This document shows, piece by piece, positions 1 through 12,578 of a DNA stretch of 64,000 bases (positions within the stretch are counted from its first letter, which is position 1; the number at the start of each line of letters is the position of its first letter). The DNA is from Isotricha intestinalis. Lineage: Eukaryota > Ciliophora > Litostomatea > Vestibuliferida > Isotrichidae. Location: the NCBI GenBank assembly GCA_023807065.1, contig JAJJLU010000362.1:1-64000 (forward strand), in the 5' to 3' direction. Made by a program: the position numbers and the translations under genes. The notes under the pieces are model-generated. The model was not told the origin of the DNA, did not search any database, and worked only from the letters and a program-made list of their open reading frames with translations.

Positions 1-34
1 CCCAATCCCCAATCCCCAATCCCCAATCCCCAAT
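1..34. repeat. Telomere, CCCCAAT heptamer repeat
   Basis: The window begins with CCCAAT followed by four perfect CCCCAAT units, the C-rich strand running inward from a left chromosome end. The G-rich strand would be ATTGGGG. The unit resembles ciliate C4A2 and C4A4 telomeres with an added T. The nearest gene ends only about 260 bases away, as is usual for compact macronuclear chromosomes. Confidence 0.93.
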
Positions 35-294
35 AGAAAAAATTTATTTGTTACAAAAACTAAAATCAAAAACAAATTCAAAAAGTAAAAAAGATTAATC
101 ATAATTTAATCTAAAATTTTTATTTAATATTCAAAAAAAAATAAATAATTATTCCGATTAATTGATTAATATAAAATTGTTAAAAACCTTGTACAAAAAA
201 TAATCGAATTTATAATATTATTCAATTATATTCAAATCAAAATAAAAATTTGAAAAAACCCAAAAAAAAAAATATATTCCATACTAAAAATATA

Positions 295-1461
295 TTAATT
301 CTCTTCTCCTAAATTTAAAAAACTTTTTTTAATTTTTTCAAAATAATTATCTCCTTGATAAATATTATCATTATCATTACTAAAATAAAAAAGGCTTCTT
401 CCAATTTGAAAAATTAATCCAAATTCTAAATAAACAGGTTCTTTAGCTAAAACTAAAGTTCCAAATTTACTTCCTAAATCTTCCATAAAAAATTTATCTT
501 CTTTCATAAATATTCTAGCATGAGATCTACTAACACTAATATCAGTAATTCTAATATCACTTTCATGTCCTCTTCCTAAAATATATGAACTTTCATTTTC
601 AATAAACATTAAAACATGAATTGAAAGAGGATAATTATTTTCTTTAATTGAATTTAAACTCTGTAAAATAATATAATTTTGACCTTCTGGAATATTATAA
701 TCTATTAAATTGTAATTTTTATTATTATTCTTTATTGTTATTTGATAAGGTTCATGACATAATTCACAATTAAATTTATTTATTATATAAGATACTCCTG
801 GTTTATTATTCATTTCCTTTATTTCTAATTTTGATTTTAACCATAATTTTAAACATTCTAAATGAAGATTCATTGATCCTTTACATTTACATATTGAAAT
901 CATTGGATTATTTTCATTTGAATTATCATTTGAATAACATATTCTACAATTTTCTTCTTCTATTATTCTTGATAATTTATTTATTTCAAATGGTATAAAA
1001 GTTTCATTTGATTTTAATATTTCTTTTCCTACTATATTCATATCTTTAACTATAAATTTTATTCTTCCTAATTTTATTATGTCATTTTTTTTTAATTCAT
1101 ATATGTAATTTGAAGTGTATTTTTGGGTTTTATATGTTTTTTGCTTTATTACATACCATATTTGCTCTTGTAAACTTTCTAATGTTTCATTATTTATTGT
1201 TAAATCTTTTAATATTCTTTTATATAATATAGGTTTTCCTTTTTGATCATTTAATGATACTAAATATTTCTTTTTTTCATTGTCGTTTTCATATGTTGAT
1301 GTCAAAGTTATTTTGTGATTTATATCTCTGTAAAAAAAACCAAAATTTTGTTCAAAGGATACTTTTGATGTATTGGAACTTTCATAATCAAATAAACCAT
1401 GAGAGTCATGATTCCAAGTTACTGTGTGTATTTTATATTCTGTTTTTGATTCTTCTTGCAT
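295..1461 (-). CDS. RING-CH (MARCH-type) and FHA domain protein
   Basis: A 388-residue protein with a RING-CH zinc finger and a forkhead-associated domain, so probably a ubiquitin E3 ligase that reads phosphothreonine. The RING-CH ligands are visible in order C172, C175, C191, C193, H200, C203, C232, C235; the Cys at the fourth ligand and His at the fifth are the RING-CH arrangement. The FHA domain lies at about 285-345, with GRGHESDI at 296-303 and SRSHA at 311-315, the phosphopeptide-binding residues. An earlier segment (KKNDIIKLGRIKF, 124-136) resembles a partial FHA strand. No membrane segments are seen, unlike animal MARCH ligases. It is the gene nearest the telomere and is transcribed towards it. 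The substrate is unknown. Confidence 0.85.
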   Translation of the reverse strand: MQEESKTEYKIHTVTWNHDSHGLFDYESSNTSKVSFEQNFGFFYRDINHKITLTSTYENDNEKKKYLVSLNDQKGKPILYKRILKDLTINNETLESLQEQIWYVIKQKTYKTQKYTSNYIYELKKNDIIKLGRIKFIVKDMNIVGKEILKSNETFIPFEINKLSRIIEEENCRICYSNDNSNENNPMISICKCKGSMNLHLECLKLWLKSKLEIKEMNNKPGVSYIINKFNCELCHEPYQITIKNNNKNYNLIDYNIPEGQNYIILQSLNSIKENNYPLSIHVLMFIENESSYILGRGHESDIRITDISVSRSHARIFMKEDKFFMEDLGSKFGTLVLAKEPVYLEFGLIFQIGRSLFYFSNDNDNIYQGDNYFEKIKKSFLNLGEEN

Positions 1462-2114
1462 TTATTTTTTTTAATTTTTTTATTTATTTTTTTTTAAATA
1501 TTAAGCTTTAGATGGTTAATTTTTTTTCATGTTTTAAAAAAATAAAATAATAAAATTAAAAAAATTTAAATAATTCAAATTTATAAATCAATTATATTAT
1601 TTGAGAAATTACGGTTTTATAAAATAAAATAATAATATAATAAAAGTGGATTTAAACTGGTTTTATATATATATATTCTTTTTATTTAAATCAAAAAAAG
1701 TTTTATATTTATATATTCAATTTATAATTACTTTCATGAATAGTTTTAGTTGTCAATTTCAAAGAATTAATTTTTGATTCTATATATATGAAAATGAATA
1801 GAATATTTAATTCAGATACTATTGATTAATTATTTATTTCTTCAAAATTATTGTTTGTTTACACAAATTATATTTTGATTGATTGTTTTTTTTATGAATT
1901 AATTTTTTTACATGATTTATGTTTCTATCTTTTAAACATGAATTACACTCTCTTTTAATTTTTTTAAATAATTGAAACTAGTTTATTTTTATCTTCTAAA
2001 TCACCATCCTTATTTATTTTTTAATAATAAATAAAGTATTTTTAACTGAATTCTCCCTTTTAAAAGTATTATCATTTTTATCCTTATCAAATTTAATTAA
2101 TAAAAATTAATAAA
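1462..2114. other. Intergenic, no gene seen
   Basis: About 650 bases of AT-rich DNA between divergent genes, presumably holding both promoters. I see no conserved reading frame, RNA gene or clear repeat. Confidence 0.6.
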
Positions 2115-2774
2115 ATGGCAGAAAATTCAAACGAGACATGTAAAATAGTATTAATAGGAGAATCAGGAGTAGGAAAAACAAGTATAATAAATCAATATGT
2201 AGAAGAAACATTTAAAGAAGACCAATTAACATCAGCAGGAGCATCATTTTCGACAAAAAAAATAGAATTAAAAAATGGTAATATAGGAACATTAGAAATA
2301 TGGGATACAGCAGGACAGGAAAAATTTCGTTCATTAACTCAATTATTTTATAAAGAAGCTTCAGCAGCAATATTAGTATATGATATAACAAGAAAAAATT
2401 CATTTGATGAAATTAAAAATTATTGGATAAAACAAGTAAAAGAAAAATCACCTAATAATGTTATTATTGCTTTAGTAGCAAATAAAATTGATTTATTTGA
2501 AAATGAAGAAGTTGAAGAAAAAGTTGCAAGAGATTTTGCTAATAATGAACGAGCTCTTTTTATGATGACTTCTGCTAAAAATAAAGAAGGTATTGATGAA
2601 TTGTTTGAGAATGTTGCTAATAAAATTTTTAAGTGCTTTGGTGATGATGATACTAATGAAGGAAATACTGTTGATATTATTAAACAAATTAGAGGAAAAA
2701 GCGTTAAGATTACTAATAATAATAATAATAATAATGGAGATAATATTACAAAGAAAAAAAAAGGATGTTGTTAG
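2115..2774 (+). CDS. Rab-family small GTPase (Rab5/22-like)
   Basis: A 219-residue small GTPase of membrane traffic. The P-loop GESGVGKT is at 15-22, WDTAGQE at 64-70, NKID at 124-127 and TSAK at 153-156, and the protein ends in KKKKGCC, the usual site of double geranylgeranylation. The switch region around ASFSTKKI and FRSLTQLFYKEA is closest to the Rab5/Rab22 group, so an endosomal role is likely but not certain. In switch I the Thr that binds magnesium, usually TIG, appears as SAG (S41). An Asn-rich stretch sits in the hypervariable tail. The start is the first ATG and gives a normal Rab N-terminus. The stop is TAG. Confidence 0.93.
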   Translation: MAENSNETCKIVLIGESGVGKTSIINQYVEETFKEDQLTSAGASFSTKKIELKNGNIGTLEIWDTAGQEKFRSLTQLFYKEASAAILVYDITRKNSFDEIKNYWIKQVKEKSPNNVIIALVANKIDLFENEEVEEKVARDFANNERALFMMTSAKNKEGIDELFENVANKIFKCFGDDDTNEGNTVDIIKQIRGKSVKITNNNNNNNGDNITKKKKGCC

Positions 2775-2944
2775 AAATATTAATTTTTTTTAAAAAAATT
2801 TATTTTTATATTTTTGATTATAATTATTCTAATTATTATCATTAATTAATCAAATATTCTTTTTTTTTAAGTTATTTTGAAATGTTATAATTATTCTATT
2901 AATTATCATTAAATATTGAAATTGTTTTTTGAAATTCAATTGAA

Positions 2945-3751
2945 ATGAAAGCACAAAATTTAAATAATGAAAATATTATAAATTTATTAGATGATGATAG
3001 TGAGGAAGAAGATAAATTTACAGAAGAAATTACTTTAAGTAAATCTTATAATAATTCAATGTCATCTGTTCAATCTATTTATGATAATGATAATGATAAT
3101 TATAATATTTTAACTGAAGATGATGTATATAAGATTTTAGATTCTTTTGAAATTCAATTAAATTCTATAAAACAAGGTTTTCAACAATTAAAGCTTTCAA
3201 TTAAAAATTATTTTAATGATAAAAATTATAAAAAATTTAAGATTTCAGATAATATTATTTCTAAAAAGATTTTTAATGCAGAAAAATTATTAACCCAAAA
3301 AATAGATAATCCAATTTCAGAAATTAATAATAATAATAGTAATTATATAGAACATTTTTTTGATTATCAAAATTTTACAAATAAAAAAGAAAAAATAAAA
3401 ATAAAGGAAAAGAAAGAAAGTCGTGGATCATTTAGTTTAATTAATAGTGAAAAATCATGGATATTAAAAGATTATATTCCTCCTAAAAAATATTTTGAAA
3501 ATAATTTAAGTAATAATACAATTAAAAACCCAGAAAATATTTTTGAAACTCATCATAAACAATTTACTAATTTAAATAATCCTTTTATTATAAGTCCAAA
3601 TGCGCTTGAAGATTTATATGATGATGATATAAATTATTATAAAAAATATAATTATAATATAATTAATAATAAGAAAATAAAACAAGTTATTAATTTAAAT
3701 AATGATTATAAAGCTGATAAAAATAATTTTATAGGAAAGAAAAGACAATAA
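2945..3751 (+). CDS. Hypothetical acidic and Asn-rich protein
   Basis: A 268-residue protein that I do not recognise. The first 60 residues are acidic and Ser/Asn-rich. Residues 65-95 may form a short helix (DDVYKILDSFEIQLNSIKQG). The rest is Lys/Asn-rich with a segment SWILKDYIPPKKYFEN near 175-190. No membrane segment or known motif is visible. It follows the Rab gene on the same strand by 170 bases. Codon use matches its neighbours and the frame is uninterrupted, so it is probably a real gene. Confidence 0.7.
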   Translation: MKAQNLNNENIINLLDDDSEEEDKFTEEITLSKSYNNSMSSVQSIYDNDNDNYNILTEDDVYKILDSFEIQLNSIKQGFQQLKLSIKNYFNDKNYKKFKISDNIISKKIFNAEKLLTQKIDNPISEINNNNSNYIEHFFDYQNFTNKKEKIKIKEKKESRGSFSLINSEKSWILKDYIPPKKYFENNLSNNTIKNPENIFETHHKQFTNLNNPFIISPNALEDLYDDDINYYKKYNYNIINNKKIKQVINLNNDYKADKNNFIGKKRQ

Positions 3752-3837
3752 TATTAAAATAATCTTAATAAATAAATTCTTTATTTTATAAAATTTTAAT
3801 ATTATAATTTCGAAAATAAAATTAATTTAAAATAAAA

Positions 3838-4967
3838 ATGTCATTTGGACAAAATGTAAATACAAATATTTATTATTTATAATAGGATTCTTTTGGAATG
3901 CAAATACAAGAAGATGAAAAAATAAATTCAAATGAACAACAAATAAAGTAAAATATAAGTTTAATTACTTTTAGTACTAATTTAGAATTAGAAACAATTC
4001 CTGATTTAATAGAAACAAAAATAAAATCAAATTTATATAACTTAATAAAAATATGTGAAAATAAATTAAACCAAAATACAGAAAGATTATTATTTTCAAA
4101 ACTATACAATTCCAATAATAATAATACTTTAACTCCAGAAGAAAAATTAAAATCAGGAATTATAATGTCAAAAATAAATAATTCCCTAAATTTATTTATA
4201 GATACATATTCATATTATCATAAAAATAGATTAAGTGAAAGTTTTTCAAAATGGAATTTTATGACTCAAACACTTAAATCTTTAGAAAATTTAGAGCCAA
4301 AAATTATAGAAAAATATAATAAAAAATTAAGTGAAAAAACAAAAGAAATAAATAATCAAATTAAAGCAAAAGAAAACGCAAATAATGCTTTAAAAAAAAA
4401 AATAAATGAATTAAATGAAACAATTGCAAAATATAAAAAGACTTTAAAACAAAATGAAGAAAAAGAAGAATTATTAAATAAAAATATTAAAACTTTAGAA
4501 AGAGATAATTCAAAATTAGAACAAGAAATAAAAAATAATGAATCTTTATATGATTCAGGAATTGATAATAGAAAAGAACAATTAGAAAATAAAATTCAAG
4601 AATTAGAAATTACTTTAAAGAATTTAGAAGATGATTTAAGAGATCAAGAACAATATTTAACTAATTATTCAAAAGAAATGAATGAAATGTTAGGTTACTT
4701 TGAAAAAAAATTAGAAGAAAAAGAAGCTTTGAAAAATAATATTGATAATGAATTTCATCAGAAACATAGTAAGATTATTTTTTTAATTTTTTTAATTTAG
4801 ATTCTAAAAATCAAAGTAATTCTAATAGTCAAAGTATGAATTATAAAATTAATGTTTTGAATCATGCTAATCAACAAAAAACTTCTTATAAAACTTCTGG
4901 TCAAAGTAATAATTCTTCTAGAGGAATTTTTATTAATACTTCTAATAATTATAATTCGAAAAAATAA
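3838..4967 (+). CDS. Coiled-coil protein, four exons
   Basis: I rebuilt this gene by splicing. The exons are 3838-3855, 3886-3947, 3975-4768 and 4801-4967, separated by introns of 30, 27 and 32 nt that all start with GTAA and end in TAG. The exons total 1041 bases, an exact 347 codons including TAA. The product has a short N-terminus starting MSFGQN, a helical domain at about 20-110, then a long coiled coil (about 120-280) rich in Glu, Lys, Asn and Leu, and a Ser/Asn/Gln-rich tail. The single open frame at 4165-4800 covers only the middle. The function is unknown; it could be a structural or trafficking scaffold. Confidence 0.8.
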
Positions 4968-5469
4968 GAAAATATTTTTTACAATTTAAAATTATTTTTT
5001 TTTAGATTATTTTTTTTTGATTTGAGAAATAAATAATAAATCATTAAGTTAATATTCTGTTAAAGATTTTAGATAAAAGACTTTCAATTTTTATTAAATA
5101 AATAGTTAACTTTATTATCTTTTTAGTTCATTGAAAAAATTAAATATAATTTTATATTTTTATTTGTATAATTAAATTATAAATTAATTTATTTTAATTT
5201 AAAGGGGCAAATTTTCTTTTTTAAAGGCAGAAAAATTAATTAAAAATTTTTAAAGGCAGAATTATTTTTTTAAAGGCCCTTTTTTAAAGGTAGAATTTAT
5301 AAAATTTTTTATTTTATTTTTTTTAAAGGCCTAAAATTATTTAATTCTTTTTAAAAGGATATAGTTATTATTAGATTAAATAATGTATACAAGATAGACA
5401 TTACCTATTAAATAAATATACCTATTAAAAAACAATTTTCTTTTAATAAATATTAGTTTTAAATTATAG
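4968..5469. other. Intergenic with short repeats
   Basis: No gene is seen. It contains the TTAAAGGC motif cluster listed separately and otherwise plain AT-rich sequence. Confidence 0.6.
5200..5330. repeat. Irregular cluster of TTAAAGGC motifs
   Basis: A motif close to TTTTAAAGGCAGAA recurs at about 5200, 5221, 5250, 5270, 5284 and 5322 with spacings of 14-38 bases and small changes (GGCAG, GGCCC, GGTAG). The G/C-containing core stands out against the surrounding A/T. The function is unknown. Confidence 0.6.
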
Positions 5470-5867
5470 AGATTAAATTTTAAAAGAGCAGGTAATCAAT
5501 GTTCAATTCCATATGCTCAATAAGCTAAATTAATACACTCAATACAATGCTTTGATAGTGTAATTCAATATAATTTTAATAAAACATCAACTAATTCTAA
5601 ACTATATTATAATTTAAATAACATACATTTTTATGTTTTACATTAAATCCAAAAATTTTATCAGATGAAAATATATTTTCATTAATAAACATGAATAATG
5701 TATTGATTCTTCAAATGAATTTTTAGGAAATAACTGATAAAATTTTAGTTTTTGAAGTTAAAGTAAAAAAAATTAAGGAATATTAGATTAAAAAAAATTA
5801 TATTAATCATATTAATAGAATTAGACAAATTGAAGTAGAAGAAAAACTCTTAGTAATAAATCAATGA
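5470..5867 (+). pseudogene. Decayed unidentified protein gene
   Basis: Coding-like sequence broken by stop codons and a frameshift. One frame reads RAGNQCSIPYAQ, then TAA, then AKLIHSIQCFDSVIQYNFN and on to about 5645. A frame shift then leads into NPKILSDENIFSLINMNN, followed by TAG, EITDKILVFEVKVKKIKEY, TAG, and a further open stretch to TGA at 5865. The amino-acid composition and codon choice are like those of intact genes here, unlike normal intergenic DNA. I do not recognise the family. Short introns cannot explain the breaks, because the flanking sequence lacks GT...AG pairs at those points. Confidence 0.6.
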
Positions 5868-6126
5868 TAAAAACAATAATTTCACAATCTAAAATATTTA
5901 ATTATATGCAATTCCTTTTTAATATTTTATATTGATATGAACTTTTTTTCTTTTTTTTATGAAAAGATTTTATTAAATAAATTAATTGAACTTTATTTTT
6001 TATTATTTTAAAATATAAATTCATGTTATTTTTAAATTATATTCCCTAACTTTTTTGTAAATTTTGTATTTATCAAAAAAATAAATAAATATTATATAAT
6101 TAAAAAAAATATTGAAACAAAAATTA

Positions 6127-7008
6127 TTAAAAAACTGTTTTACTCCCATCAATAAATCCATTTCCATCAAAATTATTATAATTATCTAAAGAAATTTTTT
6201 TCTTCCCAAAATTATTTTTCCCATATTTATCTTCATTCATATTATTTAAATTAAATTGAATTTTCTTTTTTCTTAAAACAGGATAAGCTAAACTATATTT
6301 ACTAAAATTAATATTTTTATTAATTTCACCAACATTTAAACTTAATAATAATTTATTTCCTAATCTCGATTTACATAATTCATTTCCTGTTGTTGTCATA
6401 ATTCCTTCATAACCTTTTGAAATTTCTTTTGTATCAATTCTATTAAAATTATTATTTAAAGAAATTTTTGTTTTATTATTTGGTTTTTTATTATTTTCAA
6501 TTTGAGGAATTATTTTTTTTAATTTTTCAATTTGTCTTTTTAATTGATATTTCCTCATTATAAAATCTTCAATTTCATTTTGAACTTTTTGAATATATAG
6601 TAATTCATCTTTTAAATTTGTTTCTATTTGATTATAATTTTTTTTTATTTCTAATATTTTTTTTTCTAAACTTTTTCTTTGATTATTATTATTGTTAGGA
6701 GAATTTTTTTCTTTTTTAATTTTCTTTTTCTTTAAATTTTCTATTATTTTATCTTTAAATAATATCATCTTTTTTAAAGTATTTATTTGCTCTTCTAAAC
6801 TTTGAATTCCAATAACATAAAATTCTTTTTCTATATCTGAATAATGAATTGTGTCATCGTTTATTTTTGTGTCTGTTTTTTTTTTCTCATTTATATTATT
6901 TAATATATTATTATTTTGAGATTGATATTGTGTGAAACTTAAATTTATTTCTTTCTTTTGTAATCTTTCTGAATTTTTACCTCGAAATAAATCGAATCCT
7001 TTTTTCAT
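6127..7008 (-). CDS. Coiled-coil protein, unknown function
   Basis: A 293-residue protein with a coiled coil from about 70 to 170 containing a poly-Asn break. Flanking regions are Lys/Asn-rich and the tail is basic, ending FIDGSKTVF. The N-terminus (MKKGFDLFRGKNSERLQKK) is basic and could be amphipathic. No domain is recognised. The frame is uninterrupted with codon use like its neighbours. The short protein at 23220-23426 also ends in a DGSKT motif, which may be chance. Confidence 0.7.
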   Translation of the reverse strand: MKKGFDLFRGKNSERLQKKEINLSFTQYQSQNNNILNNINEKKKTDTKINDDTIHYSDIEKEFYVIGIQSLEEQINTLKKMILFKDKIIENLKKKKIKKEKNSPNNNNNQRKSLEKKILEIKKNYNQIETNLKDELLYIQKVQNEIEDFIMRKYQLKRQIEKLKKIIPQIENNKKPNNKTKISLNNNFNRIDTKEISKGYEGIMTTTGNELCKSRLGNKLLLSLNVGEINKNINFSKYSLAYPVLRKKKIQFNLNNMNEDKYGKNNFGKKKISLDNYNNFDGNGFIDGSKTVF

Positions 7009-7443
7009 TTTTTTATTTTTAAATTAAATTCTTCTTTAAACAATTAATTTATTTATTAAATATTTTATCAATTGATAATTAGATAACAATTGTTTAACTT
7101 AATAAAAAAGATAAAGTTATATATAAAAAATAACTTATTCTTTTTCTTTATTGCTATTTTCTTTTAAGAATTATTTACATTTTTGGCCTATAATTGTTAA
7201 CAATGAACATAGAAAAAGTCAATAAAATTTAATTAAAATATCTTCTTTTAAAATACCTTTAATTTTAATAAAAGAATATAGATCTGAAAAAACCTTATTA
7301 TCATATTTTAAAAGTATTAAATCTATAATATTAATCAAAAAAAATATTTAAAATTTGAATTATATAAAATTATACTCATTTACAATTTATTATTAAACTT
7401 CTAAGTTTAATAATTTTTTTAAATATTAATTAAATTATAAAAA
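7009..7443. other. Intergenic between divergent genes
   Basis: About 435 bases of AT-rich sequence between two divergently transcribed genes. I see nothing else in it. Confidence 0.6.
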
Positions 7444-8106
7444 ATGAATTTTGATATATTAAGAAAAGCAATTCCTGAAGAATCACTTTCTGCTTTTTTA
7501 GAAAAAAATTCTAGATATGATGGAAGAACTTTCGAACAAATAAGAGAATTTACTTATACAAAAAATATTTTGGATTTTACAAAATATTCTCTTATTGGAA
7601 GTTTAGGTTTAAATAAAGTTATTTTAGTTTTAAAAATTGAAGATATGATAAATTACAATAATAACGATATTCAATTTAATTTTATTTTAGAAAATTTTGA
7701 ATCTTCAAAACAAGAAAATAATTATTCATTAAAGAATTATGTAAATCAAATAATAAAAGATAATATTAATCCCATTAAAGAAACAGCAAAAAATAAATTA
7801 TATACTTTATATATAACAATAGAAAGTATTGATGGAAATATTTATGATACTATTGGTTTAAGTATTCAAAAATTTTTTGAAAAAGGAAATGAATTTAATG
7901 TTGAATTAATAAAAGACTATATAACAAGAACTGTTTGTTTCATTGATGATAAAATTTTAATGGATCCTTCACAAAATGAATTAGATTTATCTACTTTTGC
8001 TTTTAATATAATAAAATTTTCAGACAATAAATATTATATAAATAAAATAATCGGAAATTTCCTCAAATGGAATTCAATAAAATATATTATAGAAAACCTT
8101 AAATAA
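7444..8106 (+). CDS. RNase PH-like exosome ring subunit (Rrp43/EXOSC8-type)
   Basis: A 220-residue protein of the RNase PH-like group that forms the six-subunit ring of the RNA exosome. The N-terminus matches the family pattern: helix, then SRYDGRTFEQIREF (compare RPDGRELGEFR), then SLGLNKVILVLK. LYTLYITIESIDGNIYDT at about 118-135 matches the strand and turn found as LYCDLICLDYDGNILDA in EXOSC8, and ILMDPSQNELDLSTFAFNI matches the DPTxEE segment. It is shorter than human EXOSC8 (276 residues), mostly in loops, and lacks catalytic residues, as expected for eukaryotic ring subunits. Rrp42 or Rrp45 cannot be excluded. It would act in RNA processing and decay in the nucleus and cytoplasm. Confidence 0.7.
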   Translation: MNFDILRKAIPEESLSAFLEKNSRYDGRTFEQIREFTYTKNILDFTKYSLIGSLGLNKVILVLKIEDMINYNNNDIQFNFILENFESSKQENNYSLKNYVNQIIKDNINPIKETAKNKLYTLYITIESIDGNIYDTIGLSIQKFFEKGNEFNVELIKDYITRTVCFIDDKILMDPSQNELDLSTFAFNIIKFSDNKYYINKIIGNFLKWNSIKYIIENLK

Positions 8107-8485
8107 AAATAATTAAATTATTCTAATTAATATAACATATATTACAAATAATTATTAAAATAAAAAAAATGTCAAATATAGGAAAGCATTTAGTCATAAA
8201 ATAAAGGCAATGAAAAAGATAAACAAATTTAGAAAAAGAAATTTTATTTTATATTTTGAATTTCTAAATAAAATATTTAAAGCTCATTATTATTTAATAA
8301 ATAATTCTTTTATTTATATTCTAATACAATTATTACAATTAGTACATCATTTGTGAAATATTCATATAACAATTGAGTATTATTAATACGGTTTTTTCAT
8401 TGAAATAAATTGTGATTGATTTCAATAATAATTTATTTTAATAATTAATTAAAGTTATAAAAATAAGAATTTCATTTTATTTGAG
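8107..8485. other. Intergenic, no gene seen
   Basis: AT-rich sequence between the exosome-subunit gene and the first internal telomere-like tract. No G-strand telomere-like tract is found here, so the join at 8485/8486 is one-sided. Confidence 0.55.
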
Positions 8486-8510
8486 CCCAATCTCCAATCC
8501 CATCCCCAAT
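8486..8510. repeat. Internal telomere-like tract, C-strand
   Basis: Four degenerate units resembling the CCCCAAT telomere: CCCAATC, TCCAATC, CCATC, CCCAAT. The orientation is that of a left chromosome end, as at base 1. The tract lies about 80 bases before the stop codon of the minus-strand arsM gene. In this A/T-dominated sequence such a C-run is very unlikely by chance. Confidence 0.85.
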
Positions 8511-8590
8511 AATTAATTTAAATAATATTAAAAAAAATTATAATTTAATCATAATTAACTAGTATTATCTAAATTAATTAAATTTTTATT

Positions 8591-9454
8591 TTAATTTTTA
8601 TAGGCAAAAATACTAGCAGTAGTTATGTATTCTTTTGGATCATTTCCATTTTCCCATTTAGTTTCAGGAGTCCACTTACTAATATAGCTATTACTATCTT
8701 TGACTTCAATTCTAACATCTTTAAAACCAACATTTGTTAAAAGTTTATTTAAATCATCAATTAATGAAGCATTAGCCATACAACTAGTATAAGATTTCAT
8801 ATCTTTCCTTATTTCTTCAGGAATAGGCTTAAGTGCAACAGGATCACTAAATATTAATCTTCCCCCTTTTTTTAATACAAAATAAACACCTTTTAACACT
8901 TTTTCTTTTTCTGGGGATAAATTGAATACACAATTTGAAATGACTACATCAAATTTTGAATTAAATTTTTCTATATTTTCCAAATCTTCAATTTTACTCA
9001 ACTCATATTGAATATTAGGATATTTTTCTTTTTTGGTTACCTCAATTGCTTTATCTATCATTTCTTGAGTCATATCAATTCCAATAACACTCCCTTTAGG
9101 GCCTACTCTTTTTGAAGCTAATCTACAATCAAATCCTGTGCCACATCCTAAATCCATTACAATTTCCCCTTCTTTTAAATCTGCTAATCCAACAGGATTA
9201 CCACAACTTAAATTACCTATAGGGATATTTTCATCAAGAATATCTTCTTCTGTATATCCTAATGAAATGGCATATTTTTTTGATTTGCAACAACATTGAG
9301 ACTCATCTTTGGCATATTGACTATATACTTTAGAAACCTCATTTCTAATCTCTTCTGCATTATTAGGATTGGATTTACAGCAGCTATTTTCTTTTTTGGA
9401 ACAACAAAAATTTTCTGAGTTATTTTTACAACAACAAGGTTTATTATTTATCAT
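8591..9454 (-). CDS. arsM: Arsenite S-adenosylmethionine methyltransferase
   Basis: A 287-residue class I SAM-dependent methyltransferase that would methylate arsenite to methylated arsenicals, a detoxification reaction. The SAM motif DLGCGTGFD is at 101-109. The three Cys known to bind As(III) in ArsM align at C84 (SCGNP), C175 (SNCVFNLSP) and C225 (SCMAN). The N-terminus is very Cys-rich (CCC at 7-9, CC pairs at 17 and 25, CCC at 54-56), as in many bacterial ArsM proteins. Base composition is visibly richer in G/C than its neighbours and there is no intron, which suits acquisition from a bacterium. It is bracketed by inverted telomere-like tracts at 8486-8510 and 9578-9589. The start is the only sensible ATG. 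Confidence 0.93.
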   Translation of the reverse strand: MINNKPCCCKNNSENFCCSKKENSCCKSNPNNAEEIRNEVSKVYSQYAKDESQCCCKSKKYAISLGYTEEDILDENIPIGNLSCGNPVGLADLKEGEIVMDLGCGTGFDCRLASKRVGPKGSVIGIDMTQEMIDKAIEVTKKEKYPNIQYELSKIEDLENIEKFNSKFDVVISNCVFNLSPEKEKVLKGVYFVLKKGGRLIFSDPVALKPIPEEIRKDMKSYTSCMANASLIDDLNKLLTNVGFKDVRIEVKDSNSYISKWTPETKWENGNDPKEYITTASIFAYKN

Positions 9455-9576
9455 TTTAATTTTTTTTTAAAACAAAAATTTATAATTTTGTAAAAGTTCT
9501 AGAACAGTTTAGAAAAATATTTTTTTTTAAATAATAATTTTAAATAAATAATAGTTAATTGATTAATAATAATGAA

Positions 9577-9599
9577 GATTGGGATTGGGCCGATCCCAT
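9577..9599. repeat. Head-to-head telomere-like junction
   Basis: ATTGGGATTGGG (9578-9589, G-strand, right-end orientation) runs directly into CCGATCCCAT (9590-9599, C-strand, left-end orientation). This is the arrangement expected if two telomere-capped ends had been joined and then decayed. The left half closes the arsM segment; the right half opens the segment with the decayed secreted-protein gene. Confidence 0.75.
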
Positions 9600-9702
9600 T
9601 TATATTTTTATAATATTTTTATAATATTTTTAGCTAATATTTATTATATTTTATTAATTATGATAATAAAATAATTATTATTTTTTATTTATAAAGAAGA
9701 AA

Positions 9703-10640
9703 ATGTCATATAAGTCCATTATTAAAATATTCCTCTTTTTTTCTCTTTTTTCATTTTATTAAATCAATTTATATTTATTCAGGGATAAAAACTCTTAATA
9801 AATTTTTATATTATTCAAGATATAAAGAGTATATTAATCAAAATAAAATCAATATATGCTCTTTAAATAATGGTTCAAATTGCTATTTTATTGAAGTTAA
9901 ATATATTATAATTATGATATAATTAAAAGAAATAATAAATAATAAATGAATTAAACTTAAAATTATGAATATAACCAAATTTTACAATGCTTTAATAATT
10001 ATACAAAAAATTATATTGAAAAAAAGTTCAAAAAAAATTGATAAAGAACAAAATTCTGAAGGTGAAACATTTAAATATTTAATGACTTTTGATACTTTTG
10101 ATGAATACACAATCAAAAAAGATAATTTTTTTGGCCAGCAATTATAAATCCAAAATTTTTATGATAAAGAATAGAATTTAGAAATAAAAGGACAATTAAA
10201 AATATCATATGATAAAGAGGAATCAGAATAAATGCTATAGATAATATATATCCTTCCAAAAGTATGGTATAATTGAATCCAAATCTATAACTATATCTTT
10301 TAAAGGAAAAACTTTTATATATAATTTTTTTTATATTAAATCACATAATAAAAATAATAAATCAGAGCAAATATATTTATATGGATATATAGGAATAAAA
10401 TTGTATACTCTTATAGTTTTAATGATAATAAAGAAAGTTAAGAAAATGATTAAAAGTTTTTTTCCTAAATCTACCCTTTTAAATGCATTATTAATTTCTG
10501 GACTTTATGATATTGATAATTTCTCTTTTAATTTCCCAATTAAATAATATGAAGATTCTAATATTTATAATATATATAATTATAAAAATAAAGAATTACT
10601 TATTAAAAATGAAGATATCTGAGTTGTTTATATTATAATT
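9703..10640 (+). pseudogene. Decayed gene for a secreted protein
   Basis: From ATG at 9703 the frame reads a signal-peptide-like start (MSYKSIIKIFLFFSLFSFY), then TAA. A shifted frame continues as IKTLNKFLYYSRYKEYINQ and on through KINICSLNNGSNCYFIEVKYI, and the same frame runs to about 10230 with interruptions TAA, TGA, TAA, TAG, TAA, TAG, for example FDTFDEYTIKKDNFFGQQL then TAA. A second shifted frame is open for about 100 codons (10246-10544), including SGLYDIDNFSFNFPIK, then TAA and YEDSNIYNIYNYKNKELL. I do not recognise the family. Two frameshifts and many stops mean it cannot make the original protein. It fills the segment between two telomere-like junctions. Confidence 0.65.
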
Positions 10641-10855
10641 TAGAATCTATTTTTGACCTTTTATAAATAGGTATTTTTATTATTATATAAAAGAAATCTA
10701 AATAATAATCTTTTAAAAAAAGAAGATTTATTTTCTTTGCACTTTTTTTAATAAATTATTTTCAATAATTTTTATTAATCTCATTAAGAACTATTATAAT
10801 ATGATAATTTAAAATAAATTCAATAATTTAATTTATATAAAATTAGAATTCTATA

Positions 10856-10902
10856 ATGGGGATTGGAGATTGGATATTGGGCCTAATCCCCAATCATCCA
10901 AT
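10856..10902. repeat. Second head-to-head telomere-like junction
   Basis: A degenerate G-strand tract (ATGGGGATTGG, AGATTGG, ATATTGGG; 10856-10881) is followed at once by a C-strand tract (CCTAATCCCCAATCATCC; 10882-10899). The layout is the same as at 9577-9599 and again resembles a right telomere joined to a left telomere. Confidence 0.85.
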
Positions 10903-10971
10903 TATTTTATATATTTATTATTATTTAAATTATATTTTAATGTTTAAAATGAAATGAAATATTATCATTTT

Positions 10972-11388
10972 TTATTCAGTATAAAATCCCCAAACAATAA
11001 CAGTATAATAAAAAATTATACCTTGATAAATATAAGTAACATAATTATCTAAATAAGAATCCCACCATCATTTTGCAACAATAGTTACTCTTCGATTTTT
11101 TTTCTGCAAATAAACTTGAACATTTATTTTATATCTATTACTTTTCCTGAATTTTGTATAAAATCTTTTATTTTGGTTGCTAAAGAATAAGCTTTTTCTC
11201 CATTTTCTTGGTAATTTCTGGAAAATATTTATATATTTCAAAGATTTATTCTACTACTTGTTTCATTCTTTCTTTATCATCTACTTTAATAAATCTATTT
11301 TTAAAAATAATTAAAAAAATAATTATTAAAAATACTTTTTATTCCATTCTGGTTCTTTTGCTCCTAAAACATTATCTTCATCTGCCAT
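10972..11388 (-). pseudogene. Decayed Tctex-type dynein light chain gene
   Basis: Reading from ATG at 11388 on the minus strand gives MADEDNVLGAKEPEWNK, then an apparent 41-nt intron (11335 down to 11295, GTATTT...AATAG), then FIKVDDKERMKQVVE, a TAA stop, and IFEIYKYFPE. After a frameshift it reads NYQENGEKAYSLATKIKDF, and after a second one YKINVQVYLQKKNRRVTIV, AK, a TGA, WWDSYLDNYVTY, and finally IVWGFYTE and TAA. The closing pattern (strand, WDSYLDNYV, VWGFYTE) is that of the Tctex1/Tctex1D light-chain fold used by axonemal and cytoplasmic dynein. With two frameshifts and two internal stops the gene is dead. It lies just inside the second telomere-like junction. Confidence 0.7.
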
Positions 11389-11639
11389 TATTTATATATT
11401 ATTTTAATTGTTGAAATTATTTTTAAAACTGTTTAAAATATTATTTGGAATATTTCTTTAATCATTATTAACTAAATAATCTTTTTCTTTTATAAATTTT
11501 TTTCTCTTATAATCTTAACAAACTAAGTCTTTTCTAGCAAATAAATCTTTTTTTATTCAAGGAAATAATGTATAACCCATTAAATAAAATTATTTTTAAA
11601 TATATTATCATAAAAACAATTTAAAAAAAATCACAGAAA

Positions 11640-12578
11640 ATGTCAAAAAAATTATCTTTCGAATTAGTTGCTGTAAGAGCAAAAAATGATAAAATAAATT
11701 CAATTAAAAAAATAAATTTATGGGGATGTGAATTAGATGATGTATCAATTTTCAGAAAAATGCCAAATTTAGAAGTAATATCATTAAGTGTTAATAATTT
11801 AAAAACATTAAAAGATTTTAAGGAATTAAAGAATTTAAGAGAATTATATTTAAGAAAAAATAATATAAGTGATATAAGAGAATTAAAATATTTATCTAAT
11901 TGTTCTAAATTAAGAACTTTATGGTTAAGTGAAAATCCAATAAGTCAAAATCCAAATTATAGAATTTCAATAATTAAATATTTACCCTTTTTAGATAAGT
12001 TAGATGATATTATTGTTTCAGAAAATGAAAGAGAAATTGCTTCTCAAATGGATAGTAATGAACTTTTAAATAGTTTTTCTTTTCAAAATAATATAAATAA
12101 TATGATGACAAGTAATGATTTTTCTAATAGAAATTTGAATAAAGATTATCAATATAATGACAAAGGAAATTTAAATATTAATGATTTAAATAATAATAAT
12201 AATCCTCTTATGAGTAGTTATGGAGGAAATAATAGTAAGCAACAAATAAATAATAATTATTCGAATTATAATTTAAGAACCAGTAATAATAATTATAATC
12301 CTTATCAAAGTAATAGTTATAATAACGATAATTTTTTTAATCAAAATGATAATTATAATTCAAATTCAAATATGAATAATTATTATGATAATTATAATTC
12401 AAATAATTTAAGAAGTACAATGGGAAATAATGAATTTATGTCAAGTTTTAAAAATATGGATAATAATACTAGTGATAGTAAAGGTATTATAGATTGTGTG
12501 TTAATTTTATTAAATAAATTAAATAATGATCAACTTGGATATGTTAGAAATGTAATAGATCAAAAAATGCAAAAATAA
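11640..12578 (+). CDS. CFAP410: CFAP410 (C21orf2) leucine-rich ciliary protein
   Basis: A 312-residue protein orthologous to CFAP410, a cilium and basal-body protein that partners NEK1 in animals. The N-terminal leucine-rich repeats (about 20-130) match closely: IKKINLWGCELDDVSIFRKM, LEVISLSVNNLKTL, LRELYLRKNNISDI, LRTLWLSENPI, then the LRR cap through LPFLDKLDD. A long Asn/Ser/Tyr-rich linker (about 145-280) has no counterpart in animals. The C-terminal helix (IIDCVLILLNKLNNDQLGYV) corresponds to the helical oligomerisation segment of CFAP410. The start is the first ATG and gives the usual short lead into the repeats. Confidence 0.87.
   Translation: MSKKLSFELVAVRAKNDKINSIKKINLWGCELDDVSIFRKMPNLEVISLSVNNLKTLKDFKELKNLRELYLRKNNISDIRELKYLSNCSKLRTLWLSENPISQNPNYRISIIKYLPFLDKLDDIIVSENEREIASQMDSNELLNSFSFQNNINNMMTSNDFSNRNLNKDYQYNDKGNLNINDLNNNNNPLMSSYGGNNSKQQINNNYSNYNLRTSNNNYNPYQSNSYNNDNFFNQNDNYNSNSNMNNYYDNYNSNNLRSTMGNNEFMSSFKNMDNNTSDSKGIIDCVLILLNKLNNDQLGYVRNVIDQKMQK

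Follow-up and report, generated by a model that had tools for sequence, protein, structure and literature searches.

What is a single gene, enclosed between a C-strand telomere-like tract and an opposed G-strand one, doing in the interior of a ciliate contig? The question is raised by positions 8486–9589 of the window, the 64,000-nucleotide stretch of DNA analysed here, which comprises bases 1–64000 of the 68,349-base contig C162 in an assembly of 57.3 Mb and 2,153 contigs. The telomere at the left end of this contig is built of CCCCAAT units, the unit also described for the rumen ciliate Entodinium caudatum (PMC6211341) and, according to passages of PMC10978948 and PMC11316547, for Balantidium ctenopharyngodoni and Muniziella cunhai, respectively. 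This points to a litostome ciliate, probably a gut-dwelling one. The window has a G+C content of 15–22% in 2-kb steps, and its long reading frames are open in the standard code, with 28 ORFs of at least 150 aa terminating at TAA (24), TAG (2) or TGA (2). All assembly contigs displayed are at least 10,000 bp long, so short chromosomes seem to be missing from the assembly.

The preliminary description placed two opposed tracts across 1.1 kb holding exactly one gene, arsM; the coordinates and the single ORF are confirmed, arsM being the only ORF of at least 90 aa between the tracts. Specifically, the C-arm at 8486–8510 reads CCCAATCTCCAATCCCATCCCCAAT and is directly preceded by GAG, with no recognisable G-arm to the left of 8486. 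The same GAG/CCC centre (the slash marks the middle of a junction) recurs in another contig, L017, at about 1748, where a G-arm is present. On the right, the G-arm GATTGGGATTGGG occupies 9577–9589 and is followed directly by the inverted C-arm CCGATCCCAT at 9590–9599. Both boundaries described earlier stand; this right C-arm had been missed, as had a third tract at 10857–10902, which is stronger than that at 9577–9599 and closes a 1.29-kb segment neighbouring arsM. The polarity of a fusion scar, a G-strand array followed by a C-strand array, is seen at 9589/9590 and 10881/10882, two junctions that differ from each other, and at 8486 its G-arm is missing. Segments 1 and 2 adjoin directly at 9589/9590. 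The coordinates of all features are collected in Table 1.

Table 1. Features of the window around the arsM segment (positions in window coordinates; strand given where assigned).
Feature	Position	Strand	Basis
Real telomere, (CCCCAAT)n, perfect, left end of contig	1..34	+	Sequence reading
Left boundary of the arsM segment, GAG/CCC centre, 25-nt C-arm	8483..8510	+	Sequence, telomere alignment
Gene-sized segment 1, 1,104 bp, one intact gene	8486..9589		Sequence and ORF reading
arsM, arsenite methyltransferase-like, 287 aa	8591..9454	-	Pfam, NCBIfam and PDB matches
G-to-C junction GATTGGGATTGGG/CCGATCCCAT, centre 9589/9590	9577..9599		Sequence, telomere alignment
Gene-sized segment 2, 1,292 bp, apparent single decayed gene with stop-to-stop frames of at most 100 aa	9590..10881		ORF reading
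Segment-2 gene, first open piece, 60 aa, without Pfam match	9965..10147	+	ORFs, Pfam
Segment-2 gene, second open piece, different frame, 100 aa	10245..10547	+	ORFs
G-to-C junction, 25-nt G-arm and 21-nt C-arm, centre 10881/10882	10857..10902		Alignment, junction detector

By sequence comparison, the product of arsM is arsenite methyltransferase-like. It matches Pfam Methyltransf_31, its best NCBIfam match is PRK11873.1, arsenite methyltransferase (230 bits, under the cut-off of 263), and it matches the PDB arsenic methyltransferases 4kw7 and 4fr0 over the SAM domain with an E value of 5e-29. Read from the sequence alone, the translation contains cysteines. A second arsM copy was not found in the assembly, of which the contigs seen are all at least 10,000 bp, and the IMG/VR search returned no arsM relative. 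The closest listed organism-named match of arsM is the anaerobic gut fungus Neocallimastix (57%), and that of a serpin encoded in contig C3 (L018, 154–1632) is the anaerobic gut fungus Anaeromyces (51%). In a 32-row tree, fungal ArsM is surrounded by unnamed metagenome sequences within the large group that also contains the query, apart from the bacterial sequences. The fungal placement of arsM, together with the fungal named matches of both genes, may hint that genes have been exchanged between gut organisms.

The decayed gene of segment 2 has no recognisable paralog: 90 aa of its second piece matched nothing else in the assembly, again among contigs of at least 10,000 bp. Just to the right of the 10881 junction, positions 10960–11428 belong to a gene family with relatives at C932, C2071 and C1161 (73–85% identity). 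This family gives the strongest of the 48 matches between window positions 8300–11500 and the assembly, the others being short or AT-rich, and a common repeat family was rejected.

Likeness to telomeres was scored as local alignment to (CCCCAAT)n and compared with 200 dinucleotide-preserving shuffles of the window from which the terminal telomere had first been taken out. Scores of 41 for the left tract and 38 for the G-arm at 10857 are both far beyond chance, because the shuffles never exceeded 31 (a score of 36 was reached in 0/200 and of 30 in 2/200). The right G-arm of arsM scores 24, a value reached in 42/200 shuffles, so it is by itself not beyond chance and gains weight only because it forms part of a G-to-C junction in phase with others. 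Applied to the window, a stricter junction detector finds the 10881 junction only, the tracts bounding arsM at 8486 and 9589 having degraded too far for it.

Across the assembly, inverted telomere-like tracts are strongly enriched in one polarity; the lack of enrichment that would have spoken against the preliminary description was thus not seen. The G-to-C pattern ATTGGGN{0,16}CCCAAT has 232 forward matches, nested matches included, against 2 for its reversed-pattern control; the opposite order, CCCAATN{0,16}ATTGGG, has 7 matches, with 2 in its control. A chance origin of the junctions was set aside in view of the shuffles and this orientation control. The 232 matches correspond to about 170 sites (estimate 172), or approximately one per 330 kb. 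Among the matches listed, 50 forward rows of the 232 resolve into 37 distinct sites, of which 22 carry the exact centre ATTGGG/CCCAAT and 14 are near variants with substitutions or with a base lost at the centre, while a single site, in C318, is non-telomeric. Moreover, GGATTGGGCCCAATCC has 67 matches in the assembly and none in its control, and the centre GGGG/CCCC, searched as ATTGGGGCCCCAAT, has 0 matches in the assembly.

Had the 7-base unit been joined at any of its positions indiscriminately, many different centres would be expected. Because one phase is seen, we infer that it corresponds to the point where the double-stranded part of a telomere naturally ends, and its constancy predicts a natural C-strand 5′ end of 5′-CCCAATCCCC. 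At the left ends of contigs, 19 of 28 start with CCC or CCCC (hand counts, p 0.001), a statistic given no weight because the three right ends seen disagree, none of them ending at the CCC phase.

The junctions also share a genomic context. The stricter detector, which allows every phase, was applied to 255 kb, made up of 19 loci fetched for the motif, the window and the right end of contig C162 (L025), which overlaps the window and in which no junction was detected; the loci read had been picked for the motif, and junction densities are therefore taken from the pattern counts alone. It finds 24 junctions there, against 0 in the reversed and 0 in the complemented sequence. None of the 24 falls within an ORF of at least 90 aa; such ORFs occupy 58% of the bases, which gives this arrangement a chance of about 1e-9 if sites were random. 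In addition, the sites cluster at gene-sized spacing, five pairs lying at most 4 kb apart among 50 sites against 0.23 expected, and five among 36 sites against 0.43 expected. In 20 junctions of this genome, the ungapped arms measure 6–32 nt and mostly 9–16 nt, by a measure that cuts short those arms that hold indels, as some do; telomere-length arms in other records measure 37–60 nt. Either the arms have shrunk since, or short telomeres took part in the joins from the start. When 34 of 35 junctions were scored for flank likeness against 100 shuffles each, three beat the best shuffle: C529, L066, where the long telomere arms explain the score, and L017 at 5541, by one point. At C529:10078 (L089, about 199), the inverted symmetry extends about 13 nt past the telomere repeats, giving 26-nt arms with one mismatch.

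The junctions and telomere tracts delimit 13 bounded segments of 0.2–2.7 kb, drawn from 16 stretches after leaving out two gaps (106 and 133 bp) as well as a two-gene 3.5-kb stretch of C230. As to whether such tracts flank single genes, four segments hold one clearly intact gene, one holds a possibly intact gene, a ubiquitin-family ORF in C1, and eight hold decayed genes or none. The intact single genes are arsM, the C3 serpin, a 488-aa ORF in C164 and a 761-aa SET-domain ORF in C221, the left bound of the last segment being a one-armed tract. The serpin lies in the terminal segment of C3 (1–1751), which runs from a real telomere to a junction, and at C164 66105–67764 a junction, the single 488-aa ORF and the contig telomere fall within 1.66 kb. 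Segments of C264, C284 and C342 likewise end at a real telomere, without an intact gene. A 73-aa piece of the decayed segment of C221 is matched at ten further places in the assembly, all free of internal stops. Contig L017 (C1), with three sites resembling junctions in its 10 kb (1–10000) and few ORFs intact, may consist of joined segments that have decayed one after another along its length.

Relatives of the segment genes in other records reside on contigs of comparable size. From the best 120 of 929 rows, 84 arsM relatives were kept at 78% identity or more over at least 280 aa, six shorter rows at 81–97% identity, with longest contigs of 787–1559 bp, being dropped. Those at 78–84% identity form 78 clusters with 136 contigs, whose longest contigs measure 910–1403 bp (median 1139), including one 32-contig cluster with a longest contig of 1294 bp. 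The closest clusters among the rows listed (88–99%) have longest contigs of 1814, 1476, 915, 4117, 1483 and 1072 bp; the named organisms in the same table are represented by a 173-kb contig of the bacterium Proteiniborus and a 599-kb contig of the fungus Neocallimastix. Similarly, the first 22 relatives of the C3 serpin, all full-length and taken from the best 120 of 278 rows, have longest contigs of 1525–2865 bp (median 1670). A control gene, window 11640–12578, was evaluated from the top four matches and the general range of the best 120 of 202 rows. Its relatives on contigs of 7.5 and 8.4 kb share 73% and 57% identity, and that on an 11.4-kb contig 62% across 45% of the query; the closest cluster (98%) is short too, at 1714 bp, and among the matches listed many distant relatives (about 38%) lie on 1.0–1.3 kb contigs. 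Since control-gene relatives are also short, gene-sized chromosomes seem general in that group rather than peculiar to arsM. This evidence concerns relatives, and so no free arsM chromosome is demonstrated for this species.

On balance, and with only a little more confidence than doubt, we regard the arsM stretch as a former telomere-capped chromosome of about 1.1 kb and the junctions as fossil telomere-to-telomere joins of gene-sized chromosomes. The earlier suggestion of a minichromosome joined into a larger chromosome is thus kept as the best reading, supported by polarity (232 against 7), phase, clustering, the long-armed junctions of identical phase in other records and the roughly 1.1-kb contigs of arsM relatives. 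Anatomy, intergenic position and wear complete its observed basis, from which we infer the joining event itself, the processing of its ends and its passage through the germline. In such a sequence of events, the single-stranded G overhang would be lost from telomere ends, and the resulting double-stranded ends, each starting with 5′-CCCAATCCCC, would be ligated to give ATTGGG/CCCAAT. The arsM chromosome would in this way have become joined to its neighbours telomere to telomere, with the second chromosome (9590–10881) joined beside it and its gene decaying afterwards. The joined state would then have reached fixation, whether in the germline or in a somatic lineage that persisted for a very long time; it appears to be inherited, because the arms have gained substitutions and lost repeats. 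Several observations count against a simple fusion. The arms are short relative to the 37–60 nt of telomere-length arms elsewhere, the left boundary of the arsM segment lacks a G-arm, the segment-2 gene is unmatched elsewhere, and arsM is single-copy in an assembly from which short contigs are absent. The eight bounded segments with decayed genes or none, the three right ends out of the CCC phase and the restriction of the contig-length evidence to relatives also weigh on this side.

The main rival, unlikely in our judgement yet deserving real weight, interprets each junction as a germline chromosome-breakage palindrome that carries its own telomere seeds and was left uncut, or was cut in some copies only, as in alternative fragmentation. 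A cut at GGG/CCC would leave both ends telomerase-ready. The one constant phase and the fairly uniform short arms resemble a defined motif, and intergenic position and gene-sized spacing suit breakage signals as well. For Oxytricha, moreover, a passage of PMC6937825 records internal sites of telomere addition in about 25% of chromosomes. However, the 67 perfect 16-mer palindromes stand uncut in the assembly, the estimated sites average about one per 330 kb, and many small segments contain decayed genes or none. The Tetrahymena Cbs and Euplotes E-Cbs breakage signals are not known to contain telomere repeats. The uncut perfect palindromes, the decayed segments and the decayed piece with ten open relatives fit telomere-to-telomere fusion better than breakage.

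A mobile element with telomere-like terminal repeats, comparable to Oxytricha TBE or Tetrahymena Tel-1 and carrying arsM as cargo, is improbable, and the transposon alternative raised in the preliminary description is correspondingly weak. The C-left and G-right ends of the segment do oppose each other like terminal inverted repeats, and TBE elements bearing telomere repeats exist (PMC3558436, in part). Nevertheless, Pfam detected no transposase among six segment ORFs and pieces, finding instead cellular-type methyltransferase, serpin, ubiquitin, SET and TLD domains and, for the 488-aa ORF and the segment-2 piece, no match at all. The segment contents also differ, an all-against-all comparison of the 13 segments yielding only three short matches of 50–115 bp at 71–84%, and segments 1 and 2 abut directly. 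No target-site duplication was recognised by eye around the arsM segment.

Least probable, and very unlikely for this genome, are library or assembly chimeras in which blunt telomere ends were ligated in the tube and then assembled: such an artefact would be pristine, whereas the junctions here are worn, short-armed and, for the two in the window, unlike each other. The process itself has precedents, since in Balantidium about 48% of Nanopore reads after correction, and about 3% of contigs after assembly, contain embedded telomeres (passages of PMC10978948), and Oxytricha PacBio reads were filtered for both orders, one of the patterns being GGGG/CCCC (passages of PMC6937825).

Chimeras of this kind may well account for the long-armed junctions of other records. 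Outside this genome, the 18-mer GGGATTGGGCCCAATCCC occurs in six stretches in GTDB and four in IMG/VR. L066, AT-rich throughout and telomere-bearing, has an internal junction of identical phase with both arms of telomere length, while L069, L076, L079 and L080 have identical-phase junctions with one telomere-length arm and a second arm cut by the contig end (in L069, at both ends). L076, L079 and L080, filed as gut bacterial MAG contigs, look chimeric in any case: they are mostly of bacterial-like G+C with an AT-rich, telomere-capped end of about 500 bp in L076, 1.7 kb with a ciliate-like ORF in L080 and less than 100 bp in L079. L076 and L080 are likely assembly chimeras because the composition change seems to fall inside a gene; less probably, the three contigs may represent telomere-capped bacterial DNA inside a ciliate. 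L069 (IMGVR_UViG_3300010998_001116) is AT-rich, 3,253 bp long and capped by CCCCAAT telomeres at both ends, with one 928-aa ORF matching an SNF2 helicase in Pfam; although filed in a viral collection, it looks like a complete ciliate nanochromosome. L077, from goat omasum, has an internal short-armed junction with AT-rich flanks on both sides. In this 3.5-kb MAG contig, the junction is flanked by a Rho-like ORF at 568–1440 (by eye; Pfam ATP-synt_ab, 40% G+C) and an AT-rich ORF at 2105–3391. L075 and L078 (both with 45% G+C flanks) and L081 and L082 (38–39% G+C, one unrelated palindrome) were counted as chance. A promoter or terminator hairpin was set aside on account of the multi-repeat telomere units and the exact phase, with the caveat that the same 18-mer occurs in the unrelated palindrome of L081 and L082. 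The viral-collection contigs L057, L061, L067 and L070 (63–67% G+C) bear short CCCCAAT-type arrays in a non-ciliate composition.

Several known systems resemble this architecture in part. Interstitial telomeric sequences formed by telomere–telomere fusion likewise show head-to-head G-to-C arrays at a former chromosome end; the present case differs in its gene-sized segments, its roughly 170 estimated sites, its constant phase and its occurrence in a ciliate with relatives that apparently carry gene-sized chromosomes. Nanochromosomes, as in Balantidium ctenopharyngodoni (CCCCAAT) and Oxytricha, likewise carry one gene with short flanks and a C-rich telomere at each end, a layout that fits the 1,104-bp arsM segment with its one ORF between two worn telomere tracts; here, however, the segment is internal to a 68-kb contig. 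Tetrahymena Tel-1 has telomere repeats as inverted termini and, like Oxytricha TBE, resembles the present case in placing them at the ends of an internal segment, whereas here no transposase or common body sequence was found and cellular genes lie inside. Ciliate alternative fragmentation and chromosome-breakage sites are also internal, located at gene boundaries and able to define chromosome ends, but the junctions here carry telomere repeats in both directions and their cutting is only putative. Literature searches outside subscription journals, mostly at the level of listings, brought up no earlier description of telomere joins preserved as fossils in the somatic chromosomes of ciliates; one study reportedly concerns chromosome fusions in Oxytricha.

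If the junctions were breakage signals, they would be a kind encoding its own telomere seed. Fossil fusions, if that is what the joins are, document how large ciliate somatic chromosomes can be built from gene-sized ones, and perhaps also the entry of somatic chromosomes into the inherited genome. A further and rather doubtful extension holds that telomere-capped single-gene chromosomes act as mobile units, either somatic copies or chromosomes of other gut ciliates eaten or met, that are joined end to end and then inherited. Were this true, the barrier between soma and germline would be broken and a vehicle for gene transfer provided, of which the roughly 170 estimated joins in the genome, two or three of them in the window, would be the record.
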